Positions 22,481-36,310 of a stretch of DNA of 64,000 nucleotides are shown here, piece after piece (positions within the stretch are counted from its first letter, which is position 1; the number at the start of each line of letters is the position of its first letter). The stretch is from Halorubrum sp. JWXQ-INN 858 (GTDB lineage Archaea; Halobacteriota; Halobacteria; Halobacteriales; Haloferacaceae): the NCBI RefSeq assembly GCF_009806985.1, contig NZ_WUAX01000005.1, positions 271,373 through 335,372 of the forward strand, in the 5' to 3' direction. The notes beneath the pieces are model-generated. The model made no database searches, was not told where the DNA came from, and worked only from the letters and a program-made list of their open reading frames with translations. The position numbers and the translations under genes are program-made.

Positions 22481-24319
22481 CTACGCCTCGCGCCGGAGCC
22501 GGGCAACGACGTAGTCGCGCTCGAGCTCGCCGAGGAACTCGCCGAGCCGCGGCCCCTGCGTCTCGTCGAAGAAGAGCCGGTACCCCGCCGCGAAGAAGTC
22601 GGCCACCTCGACGCCGTGTTCGCGGGCGGTTTCGTACATCTCGCTCTGGATCGCGTCGCCGTCGTGTCCCTCCGCGACGAAGTCGGCGAGGTCGTCGAGC
22701 GCGGCCGCCACCGCTGCGTCGAAGTCCGCGTCGGGCAGCTCGGTCTGGAGGCGGTAGTTGTACTCGTTGTCCATCCGCTCGGCCCAGTTGCGCGCGCGCT
22801 CGACGCGCTCGAGCGCCTCCGCGACCGCCCAGTCGGGGGTATCGTCCGCGAAGTGTCCCTCGTCGCGGGCGAGCTGTTCGCGGAGTTCGGGGTCGTCGAC
22901 CATCCCGAGCACGGCGGCGAACGTGTACGGGAGCCGGACGCGGTCGCGCGGGTCGGCGTCCGGCGGCCGCTCGTCGGCGACGTCGCCCACGACGAACGGG
23001 TACGCCCGCTCCGCAAAGCGGACGAGCTCGGGATCGTCGACCTCGCCGAAGGACGCGCGCTCGAAGCGGTCGAAGCGGTCGACGAGCTGGTCGAGCCTGG
23101 CTAACTCGAGGTCGCGCGCCTTCTTCGGGTGGAGCGCGAAGAAGTACCGGAGCACCTCCGGCTCCAGCAGGTCGAGCAGCTCGGGCACGGTGACGATGTT
23201 GCCGGCCGACGAGGAGAGCGCCTCGCCGTTGAGGGTGAACCACTCGTACACCATCGGTACGGGGGGCTCGATCCCGAGGACGTTCCGGGCGACGTCGACC
23301 CCGGAGGGCCAGGAGCCCTCCGCGTGGTCCTTCCCGAACGGCTCGAAGTCGACCCCGAGCACCCGCCACTGGCCGGGCCACTCGAGCCGCCACGGGAGCT
23401 TCCCCTCGCGGAACGTCGCGGTCCCCTCGTGGCCACAGCCCTCGATCGTGTCGCCGCCGACGTCCATGTCGGCACAGACGTAGTCGACGGTCCCCGCCTC
23501 GACGTCGACGGCGGTCACGCGCTCGGTCACCTTCCCGCAGGACGCACAGACGGGGTTGAACGGGACGTACTCGTCGTCGACCTTGTCCTGATACGTCGAG
23601 AGCACCTCGCGGACGCCCTCGAGGTCGGCGAGGACGGCCCGCGTCACGTCGTCGAACGCCCCTTCGGCGTACAGATCGGTGTTCGAGAGCATCTCGATGG
23701 GGACGCCCAATCGTTCCGCGTCCGCCCGTAACAGCCCGGCGAAGTGGGCCGCGTACGACGTCGCCTCGCCGAACGGGTCGGGGATCGACGTGTACGGCTT
23801 GCCGAGGTTCCGACCGAGCGCGCCGGCGTCGACGTCGCCCAGGCCGACGATCTCGCCGTCCGCGTTCGCGAGCTTCCGCGGGATCTTTCGGAGCGGGTCC
23901 TTGTCGTCGGAGGTGAACACCTGCCGCACCTCGTGGCCGCGCTCGCGGAGCACCTCGGCGACGAAGTAGCCGCGCATGACCTCGTTGACGTTCCCGAGAT
24001 GGGCCACCCCCGAGGGGGAGACGCCGCCCTTGATCACGATCGGATCGTCGGGGTTCCGCGCCTCGATCTCGTCGGCGACGACGTCGGCCCAGAAGGCGTG
24101 GAACGCCGCGGGCTCCCCGTCGGCACTCGCCTCGTCCCCGTCGGCACTCGCCCCGTCCCCGTCGGCGTCCGTCACCCCGCCCGTCCTCCCGGCCGCTTCC
24201 GAGAGGATGTGCGGGGAGTCGTCGTGGGGCGTTCCGGCCGGACCGGCGGCTCGCTCGTCGGACTGCCGGCCGTCGGCCGTCCGCTCACCCGCCCCTTCCA
24301 CGGGCTCCTCGTCGCTCAT
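22481..24319 (-). CDS. lysS: Lysyl-tRNA synthetase, class I
   Basis: Charges tRNA-Lys with lysine. The 612-residue protein is the class I type typical of euryarchaea. The core starts around residue 71 with AAFHAFWADVVADEIEAR; SPSGVAHLGNV (~98-108) is the HIGH-type motif and LSSSAGNIVT (~365) the KMSKS-type motif, with alanine where a second lysine is common. CASCGKVTERV and later cysteines suggest a zinc knuckle. The first ~70 residues are an unusual acidic low-complexity extension with ASADGDEASADGEP repeats. ATG 24319 overlaps the pyrH stop by four bases (ATGA), which fixes the start, unless an internal start is used. Confidence 0.93.
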   Translation of the reverse strand: MSDEEPVEGAGERTADGRQSDERAAGPAGTPHDDSPHILSEAAGRTGGVTDADGDGASADGDEASADGEPAAFHAFWADVVADEIEARNPDDPIVIKGGVSPSGVAHLGNVNEVMRGYFVAEVLRERGHEVRQVFTSDDKDPLRKIPRKLANADGEIVGLGDVDAGALGRNLGKPYTSIPDPFGEATSYAAHFAGLLRADAERLGVPIEMLSNTDLYAEGAFDDVTRAVLADLEGVREVLSTYQDKVDDEYVPFNPVCASCGKVTERVTAVDVEAGTVDYVCADMDVGGDTIEGCGHEGTATFREGKLPWRLEWPGQWRVLGVDFEPFGKDHAEGSWPSGVDVARNVLGIEPPVPMVYEWFTLNGEALSSSAGNIVTVPELLDLLEPEVLRYFFALHPKKARDLELARLDQLVDRFDRFERASFGEVDDPELVRFAERAYPFVVGDVADERPPDADPRDRVRLPYTFAAVLGMVDDPELREQLARDEGHFADDTPDWAVAEALERVERARNWAERMDNEYNYRLQTELPDADFDAAVAAALDDLADFVAEGHDGDAIQSEMYETAREHGVEVADFFAAGYRLFFDETQGPRLGEFLGELERDYVVARLRREA

Positions 24320-25035
24320 TCCGCACCCGCCCAGTAGCTGGGCTCGCCGGTACCGGCCGGAACGACGTCAGTCCCGGTGTGTTCGCCGCGCAACACCGCG
24401 TCGACGAGCACGGCCGGGTCCGTGCCGTCCAGGACGACCGAGCGGATCCCCGCGCGGTCGATCAGCTTGGCCGCGAGCAGGTCGACGGGGGCGGACGCCC
24501 CGGCGTCACGGCTCATCGGAAGGACGACGTCGACGAGCTCCGCCGGCGTCATCTCGGCGTACTGGGTCGCGTCCGCGTGGACGTTGGGGTCGGCGTCGTA
24601 CACGCCGTCGGCGCTCGTCGCGTACACGAGGAGGTCGGCGTCGACGGCTTCCGCGAACGCGGCGGCGACGGCGTCCGTGGTCTGTCCGGGCGTTACGCCG
24701 CCCATCACCGACACCTCGTCGCGGCGGAGCGCCGCCGCGGCCTCGTCGTACTCCGTTGCGGGCGAGATGGTCGCGGCCTCGCCCAGCGCGGCGATCAGCA
24801 GCCGGGCGTTGAGCCGGGTCGTTCCGATCCCCAGCTGGTCGAGCTGGACCTCGTTGGCTCCCAGCTCGCGGGCGGCCTCGATGTACTCGCGCGCGACGCC
24901 GCCCCCGCCGACGACGACGCCCAGTTCACACCCGTCCGCCGCCAACCGTTCGAGGGCGTCGGCGTGAGCGGCGACCCGGTCCGGGTCGAGATCCGGCGCG
25001 AGCACGCTCCCGCCGATGGAAACGACGACTCTCAT
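24316..25035 (-). CDS. pyrH: UMP kinase (archaeal type)
   Basis: Amino-acid-kinase-family enzyme making UDP from UMP. The 239 residues open MRVVVSIGGSVLAPDLD (phosphate loop), followed by GVVVGGGGVAREYI, SVMGGVTPGQTTDAVAA (UMP-binding and gating segment) and YATSADGVYDADP. The length suits archaeal PyrH. A TATA-like box on the minus strand (CCTTAAG, 25061-25067) sits 26 bases before the ATG, so the operon message is probably leaderless. The stop overlaps lysS by four bases. Confidence 0.94.
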   Translation of the reverse strand: MRVVVSIGGSVLAPDLDPDRVAAHADALERLAADGCELGVVVGGGGVAREYIEAARELGANEVQLDQLGIGTTRLNARLLIAALGEAATISPATEYDEAAAALRRDEVSVMGGVTPGQTTDAVAAAFAEAVDADLLVYATSADGVYDADPNVHADATQYAEMTPAELVDVVLPMSRDAGASAPVDLLAAKLIDRAGIRSVVLDGTDPAVLVDAVLRGEHTGTDVVPAGTGEPSYWAGAE

Positions 25036-25155: not shown

Positions 25156-25195
25156 TTTATAAATGTCGAGAACGGCATCCGCGATCCTTATAAAG
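25156..25195 (+). promoter_or_regulatory. Two TATA-like boxes ahead of the structured block
   Basis: TTTATAAAT (25156-25164) and CCTTATAAAG (25186-25195) are strong haloarchaeal TATA matches. The second predicts a start near 25218-25222, directly before the first stem. No open reading frame follows, so a non-coding RNA is the simplest product. Confidence 0.5.
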
Positions 25196-25224
25196 AGGTC
25201 CCGCTCAGACCGTATTCCCACCGT

Positions 25225-25545
25225 CGGCGCGCGCGAGAAACGCGCGCGAGGGAGCCCGCGACTGGCAGCAGCCAGTCGCGGCGAGGCTGGGGAGGTGTGA
25301 GGTGCGGTCGCGGTGCGGGGTGGGACTGGAAGGGGCAGCCGCGATCTCCGTGAGCGAAGCGAACGGAGGCTCGGGAGACTGCGTCTCCCGGTGGGACGAA
25401 GCACGGTGAAGCAAGCACCGCAGTACCCGCGGCGGCTCTTTTAAAGGGCCGTCGCGGAGTGTCCGAGGAGCGTAGCGAGCCGCGCGAGTCCTCGCGGCTG
25501 GGGCTTCCGAGGTAGCGGTCCGTGCGTCACTCATACCGATCGCAG
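25225..25545. ncRNA. Candidate structured RNA or dispersed repeat element
   Basis: The block contains several strong stems: GCGCGCG-AGAAA-CGCGCGC (25227-25246), CCGCGACTGGC-AGCA-GCCAGTCGCGG (25256-25281, 11 paired bases), GGGAGAC-TGC-GTCTCCC (25373-25389), and a weaker one around GCGGCGGCTCTTTTAAAGGGCCGTCGC (25429-25455). In between lies GGGTGGGACTGGAAGGGGC. It lacks the GAGGAAxGUC and ACAGAA cores of RNase P RNA and the helix-8 signature of SRP RNA. From general familiarity, similar GC-rich blocks recur between Halorubrum genes, so it may be a dispersed element instead. Strand is assumed plus from the TATA boxes. Confidence 0.4.
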
Positions 25546-25682
25546 GCAAATCGTCTTATAAGCGCATGGCCGGGGCTTCCGGTGCGGAAGTATCGGCGAC
25601 TAATAGGTGGACATCATTCCTCACCTCGTCTACTCGATCACGAGCGGGAAACGCCTAAGCCGCTGGCTCCCCGCCCTCAGGT

Positions 25683-26564
25683 ATGCAACCGATCTCGATC
25701 CTCGGCCCGGGGGCGACCGACCTCGCCGGAGCGCTCGCGGAGGGGTTCGACGGACGCGTCGCCGTCGTCGACCGCGACGACGGGACCGCCGAGGGGACCA
25801 CCGACGGCGGCGTCTCGGTGCCGGACGACGGAACCCCTGCGACCGCGTCCGACACCTCCGAGACCGCTGACGCCGCAGATGCCGCCGAACCCGCCGCGAC
25901 GTCGATACGGCTCTCGTCGGACGGCTCCTGGACCGGTCACGGAACCGTCGACGGCTTCGACGACCTGCTCGACGGGCTCGCGCCGGCCCACGACTACCTC
26001 GTCGCCGTCGGCTACACCCGCCTCCGCGTGCCCACGGTCCTGCTCGGGGCCGACCTCAACCCGGACGACGTCCCGGGCGACGTGATCGCGACCGCCGCTG
26101 CTCCCGGGGACCTCGATCTCGACGCGCTCCGCGCCGACCTCGACGCTGCGGAGCCGTGGATCACCCTCGAGGAGCTCGTGGACCGGGCCCGCGACGCGCC
26201 CGACGCGGACCGATCGGGCGCGATAGCGACCTTCACCGGGCGAGTTCGGGCGCGGGACGCGCCGGACGACGACCGAACGACCCACCTCGCGTTCGAGAAG
26301 TACGAGGGGGTCGCCCGCGAACGCATGAACGCCATCGCCGACGAGCTGACCGACCGGGACGGCGTCTTCGAGGTGCTCATGCACCACCGGACCGGCGTCA
26401 TCGAGGACGGCGAGGACATCGTCTTCGTCGTCGTCCTCGCCGGCCACCGCGAGGAGGCGTTTCGGACGGTCGAGGACGGGATCAACCGGCTGAAGGACGA
26501 GGTCCCGATCTTCAAGAAGGAGACGACGGAATCCGAGGCGTTCTGGGTCCATCAGCGGGCGTAG
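25683..26564 (+). CDS. moaE: Molybdopterin synthase MoaE with MobB-like N-terminal domain
   Basis: Large subunit of molybdopterin synthase, which converts cyclic pyranopterin monophosphate to molybdopterin with sulfur from MoaD. The MoaE domain is residues ~158-293: GAIATFTGRVRARDAPDD, LAFEKYEGVARERM, MHHRTGVIEDGED and the active-site lysines in PIFKKETTESEAFWVH. The N-terminal ~155 residues resemble a MobB domain but its P-loop reads GPGATDLAGAL, without the GKT/S of a working nucleotide site. An acidic Ala/Asp insert covers ~35-75. MoaD is not in the window. The fusion is common in haloarchaea; the degenerate loop is the odd part. Confidence 0.88.
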   Translation: MQPISILGPGATDLAGALAEGFDGRVAVVDRDDGTAEGTTDGGVSVPDDGTPATASDTSETADAADAAEPAATSIRLSSDGSWTGHGTVDGFDDLLDGLAPAHDYLVAVGYTRLRVPTVLLGADLNPDDVPGDVIATAAAPGDLDLDALRADLDAAEPWITLEELVDRARDAPDADRSGAIATFTGRVRARDAPDDDRTTHLAFEKYEGVARERMNAIADELTDRDGVFEVLMHHRTGVIEDGEDIVFVVVLAGHREEAFRTVEDGINRLKDEVPIFKKETTESEAFWVHQRA

Positions 26565-35443: not shown

Positions 35444-36310
35444 ATGCGCACCGAGGACGGACTCACGATCTGTGTGCCGTCCTCGCTCGTCCGCGAAGCC
35501 GAGGACCAACGCGAGGCGACTCGCAAACTCGGCTACGTCGCCCGCGCGGCGGCGGTCTTTCGGGCGGGCCGGCTCGTCGTCTTCCCCGACAGGGAAGGGG
35601 AGAGCCGCTGGGGCGAGGGGTTCGTCCGTGCCGTGCTGGGCTACGCCGCGACGCCGCCGGAGCTCCGAAAGGACCTCTGGGGCGAACGCGACGAGCTCCG
35701 GTACGCCGGAATACTCCCCCCGCTCCGCGTGTCGTGGCGGACCGGCTCCCCCCCCGACGGGGCGGAGTCGAAAACACAGGGACTCGTGACCGAGGTCGGA
35801 CCTGAAGGCCGCGTTCGGGTCAATTCCCCGCTGGGGGAACACCCGATCTCCCTGCTCGTCCCCTCCGAAATGGAGGTCGAGCGGGGGGAACGCGTCACCA
35901 TCAGGGTCTCTTCGAGAGAACCGGTCCGCGCCCGCATCACCGGAAAGCCGGAGGACGGCTTTCAGGTCGTGGCCGCGGACCTGTCGGAAGCGCTCACGGG
36001 CGACGAACTCGCCATCGCGACGTCGCGGCACGGGGAACCGCTCTCCGTCCCGCGGCTCGGCGAACTCGTCGCCGACGCACGGGAGGCCGGCGGCTACACC
36101 GTCGCCTTCGGTGCGCCCGGACGAGGGCTTCCGGACATGCTCGGGCTCACGCCCGAGGACATCCGAGCGGCCGTCAACGACGGCCGCCGAGTCGAACCCG
36201 ATCCGGGGTTCGACCTCTGGCTGAACACGATCCCGGCACAGGGCAGCGAGGTAGTCCGAACGGAGGAGGCTCTGTTCGCGACCCTCGGCTCGCTCACACT
36301 CACGGAGTAA
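35444..36310 (+). CDS. SPOUT-family RNA methyltransferase (DUF171)
   Basis: A 288-residue SPOUT-fold methyltransferase of the type encoded directly before rpl3 in archaea, thought to methylate rRNA uridine. The N-terminal SPOUT half has VPSSLVREAEDQREATRKLG and FRAGRLVVFPD. An OB-like insert follows (GLVTEVGPEGRVRVNSPLG). The C-terminus has the knotted SAM site: VAFGAPGRGLPDMLGL and WLNTIPAQGSEVVRTEEAL. It stops four bases before rpl3, so it should be the first gene of the ribosomal transcript, with a promoter-like CCCTTTTACG about 40 bases upstream. The exact target base is not shown by the sequence. Confidence 0.85.
   Translation: MRTEDGLTICVPSSLVREAEDQREATRKLGYVARAAAVFRAGRLVVFPDREGESRWGEGFVRAVLGYAATPPELRKDLWGERDELRYAGILPPLRVSWRTGSPPDGAESKTQGLVTEVGPEGRVRVNSPLGEHPISLLVPSEMEVERGERVTIRVSSREPVRARITGKPEDGFQVVAADLSEALTGDELAIATSRHGEPLSVPRLGELVADAREAGGYTVAFGAPGRGLPDMLGLTPEDIRAAVNDGRRVEPDPGFDLWLNTIPAQGSEVVRTEEALFATLGSLTLTE

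Follow-up and report, generated by a model that had tools for sequence, protein, structure and literature searches.

A dispersed, strongly folded non-coding element of Halorubrum, probably mobile, with near-invariant linkers and freely varying stems

The region between the genes for UMP kinase and a moaE-type molybdopterin synthase in Halorubrum sp. JWXQ-INN 858 holds a full-length copy (25226–25512) of a dispersed, strongly folded, non-coding kind of element. Positions are those of the window, by which we mean the whole 64,000-nucleotide stretch of DNA that was analyzed; the UMP kinase gene occupies 24316–25035 on the minus strand, and the molybdopterin synthase gene begins at 25683. The explanation that we favor, as the likelier one overall, is that this copy is a non-autonomous, mobile haloarchaeal element that folds as a single strand and whose hairpins are exchanged ectopically. 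A first-pass annotation of the block had offered a structured RNA or a dispersed Halorubrum-type element as alternatives, and these proved to be two aspects of a single dispersed element: its fold is conserved by compensatory change, and copies occur in every Halorubrum sampled.

The strong stems claimed for the block (at least three, with up to 11 perfect pairs) could be located as H1, H2, a perfect 8-bp stem, and a long-range stem (25328–25344/25492–25508; 17 nt, 82% complementary), and the parts of the window copy are collected in Table 1. On either strand the block folds better than every one of 100 dinucleotide-shuffled controls (z −4.71 on the plus and −3.80 on the minus strand), and the outer helix, H3, and rod derived from other genomes all reappear in the minimum-energy fold of the window copy. 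The earlier view that there is no plausible protein frame was borne out. Open reading frames crossing the block reach 114 amino acids, and across copies of the element (~100–400 nt) no frame is conserved, because linker lengths and stem sequences vary from copy to copy.

Table 1. Features of the window copy and its surroundings, in window coordinates (a dot marks an unassigned strand)
Feature	Start	End	Strand	Remarks
Insertion, approximate extent	25086	25640	+	UMP kinase (pyrH)–moaE intergenic region; exact ends undefined because the intergenic DNA is diverged
TATA-like box 1, GTTTATAAATG	25155	25165	.	
TATA-like box 2, CCTTATAAAGAGG	25186	25198	.	Most copies have TATA-like boxes before H1
H1, GGCGCGCGCG-AGAAA-CGCGCGCG	25226	25248	+	Modeled in covariance model R1; 8-bp stem, 25228–25235/25241–25248
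Linker AGGGA	25249	25253	+	Nearly invariant across copies
H2, hypervariable perfect hairpin	25254	25282	+	11 bp in the window copy (11 perfect pairs, 25256–25266/25271–25281); extra closing G-C, one bulged C
Purine-rich linker GAGGCTGGGGAGGTGTGAGGTGCGGT	25283	25308	+	Nearly invariant; present across haloarchaeal families
GGGACTGGAAGGGG	25322	25335	+	Outer helix 5′ arm (GGAAG 25328–25332, pairing with CTTCC 25504–25508) and GGG of the internal loop
H3 5′ arm CAGCCGCGA	25336	25344	+	Resumes as GGAC 25394–25397
Two small hairpins within H3, CTCCGTGAGCGAAGCGAACGGAG and CGGGAGACTGCGTCTCCCG	25346	25390	+	Predicted folds, not in the consensus 3′ domain; perfect 8-bp stem, 25372–25379/25383–25390
Rod, GCAAGCACCGCAG...CCGAGGAGCGTAGCGAG	25411	25479	+	Short Watson–Crick steps and G·A mismatches; apical hairpin replaced (25427–25457, TTTTAA center)
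H3 3′ arms	25488	25500	+	GTCC 25488–25491; TCGCGGCTG 25492–25500
GGGGCTTCCGAGG	25500	25512	+	Last H3 G, internal-loop GGG, and outer helix 3′ arm
Degenerate downstream unit TCTTATAAGCGCATGGCCGGGGCTTCCGG	25554	25582	+	Resembles the ~57–60-bp tandem units after many copies

The block contains no Rfam 15 family at gathering score (RNase P, SRP, and HEARO among others), and a search relaxed to E ≤ 1 gave only sub-threshold chance matches (E 0.75–0.77), which agrees with the first reading for RNase P and SRP RNA. The element turned up in no paper when the literature was searched for its topic or for its motif sequences, with most subscription papers outside the coverage of these searches, and a vesicle-RNA paper on other haloarchaea, examined for a matching ncRNA class, was among the leads rejected (PMC10927574). 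The family, whose folded copies measure about 100–300 bases, is apparently undescribed. Elsewhere in the window, positions 35802–35904 (plus strand) match the Rfam L4-Archaeoglobi ribosomal leader at 72.7 bits (gathering score 34.5), here in a haloarchaeon.

A BLAST search of the block, which had been proposed as a check, matched 25 places in its own genome, nearly all of them sharing one core made up of H1, AGGGA, H2, and then GAGGYTGGGGAGG..GAGG. Genome counts were made with the covariance model R1 at cut-offs of E ≤ 1 and E ≤ 0.01; the window's genome gave 36 matches at the first cut-off, 31 of which also passed the second, and ten other Halorubrum species have 31–136 copies per genome. Across the order the element was present in 53 of 293 genomes and 11 of 87 genera (E ≤ 1e-5), including all Halorubrum sampled, with lower copy numbers in the other genera; the named matching records are chiefly Halorubrum, with Haloparvum, Halorussus, and Halobellus besides. 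On plasmids, a relative's copy matched three records (Halobaculum, Halorubrum, and Natrinema) and the window copy one (Halorussus), while no viral or phage record matched either copy. The 87 copies of one genome (G008) are randomly scattered (spacing CV 1.05) and show no significant strand bias (52:35, p 0.09), and none of them lies on its smaller second replicon (approximately 0.38 Mb; P ~6e-5 if copies were evenly spread). Copies that we examined are intergenic, with neighboring genes in all four arrangements (17 convergent, 28 tandem, 7 divergent) as called by a simple codon-usage script, which gave one apparent gene overlap, at a doubtful element match. The fetched copies of any one genome are not nearly identical along their length, and there is thus no sign of a recent burst.

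Most of the Halorubrum copies that we examined continue beyond the core into a 3′ domain, GGGACTCAAAGGGG-CAG[H3]..CTG-GGGCTTTGGAG, with GGGAC first, then the outer helix, the GGG/GGG internal loop, the long stem H3, and last the G·A-rich rod. The outer helix, CAAAG/CTTTG, spans the invariant GGG/GGG internal loop, and its arms covary (CAAAG/CTTTG, CGAAG/CTTCG, GGAAG/CTTCC in the window copy, and GAAAG/CTTTC in Haloparvum copy L200); H3 encloses the rod, in which G·A mismatches separate short Watson–Crick steps. The window copy departs from this consensus in its apical hairpin and in having two additional hairpins within H3, and it is the only one among the fetched copies of its genome to carry the 3′ domain at all. 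The Halorussus copies examined consist of the core only. The sequence that the first-pass annotation named for similar GC-rich intergenic blocks is a real motif; GGGACTGGAAGGGGC stands at 25322–25336 of the window, and in most relatives the motif reads GGGACTCAAAGGGGC. Throughout the family the linkers are nearly invariant, whereas hardly any two copies have the same stem sequences, although pairing is kept; among 144 copies there are 115 distinct H2 sequences.

Several copies carry additional repeats. Head-to-tail units of ~57–60 bp (TTTATAAAYGAGCGGCTGGGGCTTTGGAGGTGTTCACCG..) lie downstream of H3 in L075, L077, L098, and others, and L075 has three that are almost identical. Small hairpin pairs, GTCGCCGGCGC..GCGCCGGCTGCCAGAGGGACC..GGTCCCTC.., sit inside H1/H2 in L072 (near 2389), L142, L147, and L161 and resemble inserts of the small mobile repeat (SMR) type. 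An optional insert of ~75–90 nt, reading CCCGCGAGYG..GGAAGTCGCAG..CCGTCTTCC, separates linker 2 from the 3′ domain in L066, L082, L083, L099, L101, L102, and L104.

A test for covariation found compensatory change far above that of shuffled alignments. For H1/H2, 98.4% of cells are paired, H2 has both-sides changes at 7 of its 9 pairs, and the alignment holds 33 both-sides cells compared to 12.9 after shuffling, with none of 500 shuffles as good; the pairing of H1 is register-ambiguous in CGCG runs and so carries little weight. For the 3′ domain (52 copies), 98.9% of cells are paired, both-sides changes occur at 20 of 33 pairs, 208 both-sides cells compare to 51 in shuffled alignments (again none of 500 as good), and sliding the partners by 1–3 columns brings pairing down to 24–40%, and although these controls lean toward structure, the fold having been predicted on the same alignment and the copies being related, the effect size is large. 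The GC-richness of the genome would favor a rival account in which the hairpins arose by chance or the block is unremarkable intergenic DNA, but the fold z-score, the tens of copies, and these compensatory changes refute it and reduce its probability to almost nothing.

We also asked on which strand the fold is maintained. A strand-symmetric stem walker counted 39 G·U compared to 10 A·C mismatches (p 4e-5), and among pairs predicted on both strands there were 28 and 5; these counts replace an initial one of 89 to 7, which was dropped because the stem walker used for it favored G·U. The consensus folding energy is −47.3 kcal/mol for the sense strand versus −35.5 kcal/mol for the antisense strand, and the loop GGAGCGAAGCGGA was seen 18 times in sense orientation. 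We take the excess of G·U over A·C in the strand-fair tests to mean that one strand, the sense strand, is under selection for its fold, be it RNA or single-stranded DNA. Of 93 apices, 57 are GNA triloops, closed mostly by G-C pairs; such triloops give DNA hairpins exceptional stability, and their frequency and stability keep single-stranded DNA among the possible forms. We consider it highly likely that selection acts on folded RNA or single-stranded DNA and not on duplex DNA.

Comparison of insertion sites suggests that the element moves. At the site of the window copy, 29 other Halorubrum species lack the element, with 56–135 bp between flank matches versus 581 bp, a pattern that repeated loss could in principle produce. 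At a second site, directly past the stop codon of the upstream gene, the element is present in most of the species fetched and missing from several. The L194/L174 pair differs by ~280 bp gained or lost, with inexact ends and no visible target duplication. Palindromes occur throughout the element, whose termini are undefined. A MITE would share its terminal inverted repeats and its target duplication with a known transposon; neither feature was seen in L194/L174, a pair in which the ends are not exactly placed. Target-site duplication at TTTATAAA boxes was considered and could not be shown. Mobility is in our judgment probable; that the second replicon of G008 has no copies, and that plasmids and viruses have almost none, would be unusual for a transposon and constitutes the main evidence against a simple mobile element.

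Within sites, the hairpins turn over and the linkers do not. Three close species with flanks 92–97% identical keep the linkers of a shared copy, whereas its H2 and H3 are unrelated. Among 54 orthologous pairs with flanks at least 90% identical, which are not independent of one another, H2 was at least 90% identical in 5, and mean H2 identity was 0.73 versus 0.66 in random pairs, compared to 0.95 for the linker that follows. The same H2 alleles recur among different copies. Same-site swaps of hairpins between fixed linkers argue for recombination between dispersed copies, and we consider hairpin replacement best explained by ectopic recombination in which the linkers of different copies serve as anchors; repeated re-insertion at one site is a possible alternative source of the differences. 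In L101 (minus strand, about 464–594), L155, and L295 (1702–1830), the interior of H3 is inverted, as if recombination between its two arms had flipped it.

In the mechanism that we propose, an enzyme supplied in trans would now and then insert a new copy into intergenic DNA, recognizing the sense strand by its fold, namely H1-AGGGA-H2-GAGG.TGGGGAGG, to which long copies would add the GGG/GGG loop and H3. Reading of this kind would fix only the linkers in sequence, since the stems would need merely to pair, and established copies would then swap stems with one another through the constant linkers. Searches for a partner enzyme gave no support to either candidate as a required partner: reverse transcriptase (PF00078) was found in 4 of the 293 genomes of the order and in none of the 53 that bear the element, and Y1 transposase (PF01797) was undetected in four of the element-bearing Halorubrum genomes sampled.

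The latter result bears on a narrower form of the same explanation, according to which the element is of the IS200/IS605/PATE type (PATE, palindrome-associated transposable element) and moves as single-stranded DNA whose one-strand hairpins are read by a Y1 transposase. The one-strand fold, the palindromes, the lack of a visible target duplication in one case, and the stable GNA triloops would all be expected of such an element, and many members of the order have Y1 transposases. IS605-type transposases, however, read specific hairpin sequences, whereas the stems here are free in sequence, and copies are scarce on plasmids as well as occurring in the four genomes with no detected Y1 transposase. 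We regard this narrower form as improbable.

A different reading takes the copies for true multicopy ncRNA genes, spread only by duplication and recombination, whose transcribed purine-rich linkers bind protein or RNA as a sponge or scaffold in the manner of bacterial CsrB-type RNAs. It would account for the large size and covariation of a fold in which single-stranded linkers are invariant and stems free, for the mismatch asymmetry on one strand, for long persistence at some sites, and for the zero copies on the second replicon of G008, and 57 of 103 copies do have a TATA-like box 14–24 nt ahead of H1. The usual archaeal TATA-to-start spacing is about 25 nt, however, and because the box mostly lies 14–22 nt before H1 in relatives, transcripts would start inside the 5′ arm of H1; box 2 of the window copy would set the start just before H1. 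Thus, of an earlier claim that the block has two TATA boxes and its own promoters, the boxes stand as TATA-like strings and the promoters remain putative, and the boxes may belong to the neighboring genes or to the element. Halorussus copies, moreover, are often without a box, and a copy number varying from 31 to 136 and a lineage-specific window copy would be odd for a housekeeping RNA. We consider the ncRNA-gene reading unlikely. A further proposal, which we hold only tentatively, is that large, structured haloarchaeal RNAs of a new class are transcribed from these copies, up to roughly a hundred in each genome; the fixed purine-rich linkers and invariant GGG/GGG loop would be the functional core and cassette-like hairpin exchange would vary the stems at one site.

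We additionally considered that Shine–Dalgarno-like tandem linkers (GGAGGUG) serve as a decoy for the 3′ end of 16S rRNA, given that the window copy has the linker GGGGAGGTGTGAGGTG and many copies have GGAGGTG after H3. In many copies, however, the T of GGAGGTG is replaced by C, and the downstream GGAGG elsewhere reads GGCGG, GGTGG, or GGAAG. Complementarity to 16S rRNA is not maintained across copies, and we rejected the decoy as very improbable.

If the favored explanation, a mobile element that folds as a single strand, is true, every sampled Halorubrum genome has tens to more than 100 copies of an elaborate fold undescribed in Rfam and in the literature searched, and fixed linkers combined with same-site hairpin swaps between close species would represent an unusual mode of evolution. 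The hairpin variants would provide a ready-made natural set for structure probing, and one could then test two possibilities for haloarchaea: that they use a structured RNA encoded in many copies, or that they mobilize single-stranded folds with no obvious partner enzyme.

Several known systems share some of these features. HEARO is a large structured bacterial RNA with many dispersed copies, mostly without an ORF; the element shares its size and dispersal and differs in anatomy, and its copies have no Rfam match. Bacterial sponge RNAs of the CsrB/RsmZ type likewise have stems whose sequence is free and, between them, single-stranded purine-rich motifs that are fixed, but they are few-copy regulators whereas the element is multicopy, and CsrA is not known in archaea. 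Bacterial palindromes of the REP/ERIC/BOX type are also dispersed, intergenic hairpin repeats, but their stem sequences are conserved, whereas the H2 alleles of the element are nearly unrelated between copies. Closer parallels come from Haloquadratum walsbyi, in which PATEs number 177 and 194 copies per genome, lack target duplications and terminal inverted repeats, and have palindromes near both termini that are similar in sequence to the palindromes of IS605 transposons (PMC3119063). Like PATEs, the element is short, non-coding, haloarchaeal, dispersed, palindromic, without a transposase gene (for which it is too short), and heterogeneous in sequence, and other small repeats are inserted into it; it differs in its free stems, fixed linkers, and covarying multi-helix 3′ domain (PMC3119063). 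We regard it as akin to PATEs and do not class it as one, since membership would depend on a resemblance of its palindromes to IS605 ends. The SMR-A repeats of Haloquadratum are ~110 bp small mobile repeats with terminal inverted repeats that insert within the palindromes of other elements, much as the uncharacterized hairpin pairs are inserted in H1, H2, and H3 of element copies (PMC3119063). Among described kinds, the PATEs and SMRs of Haloquadratum are the nearest to the element (PMC3119063).
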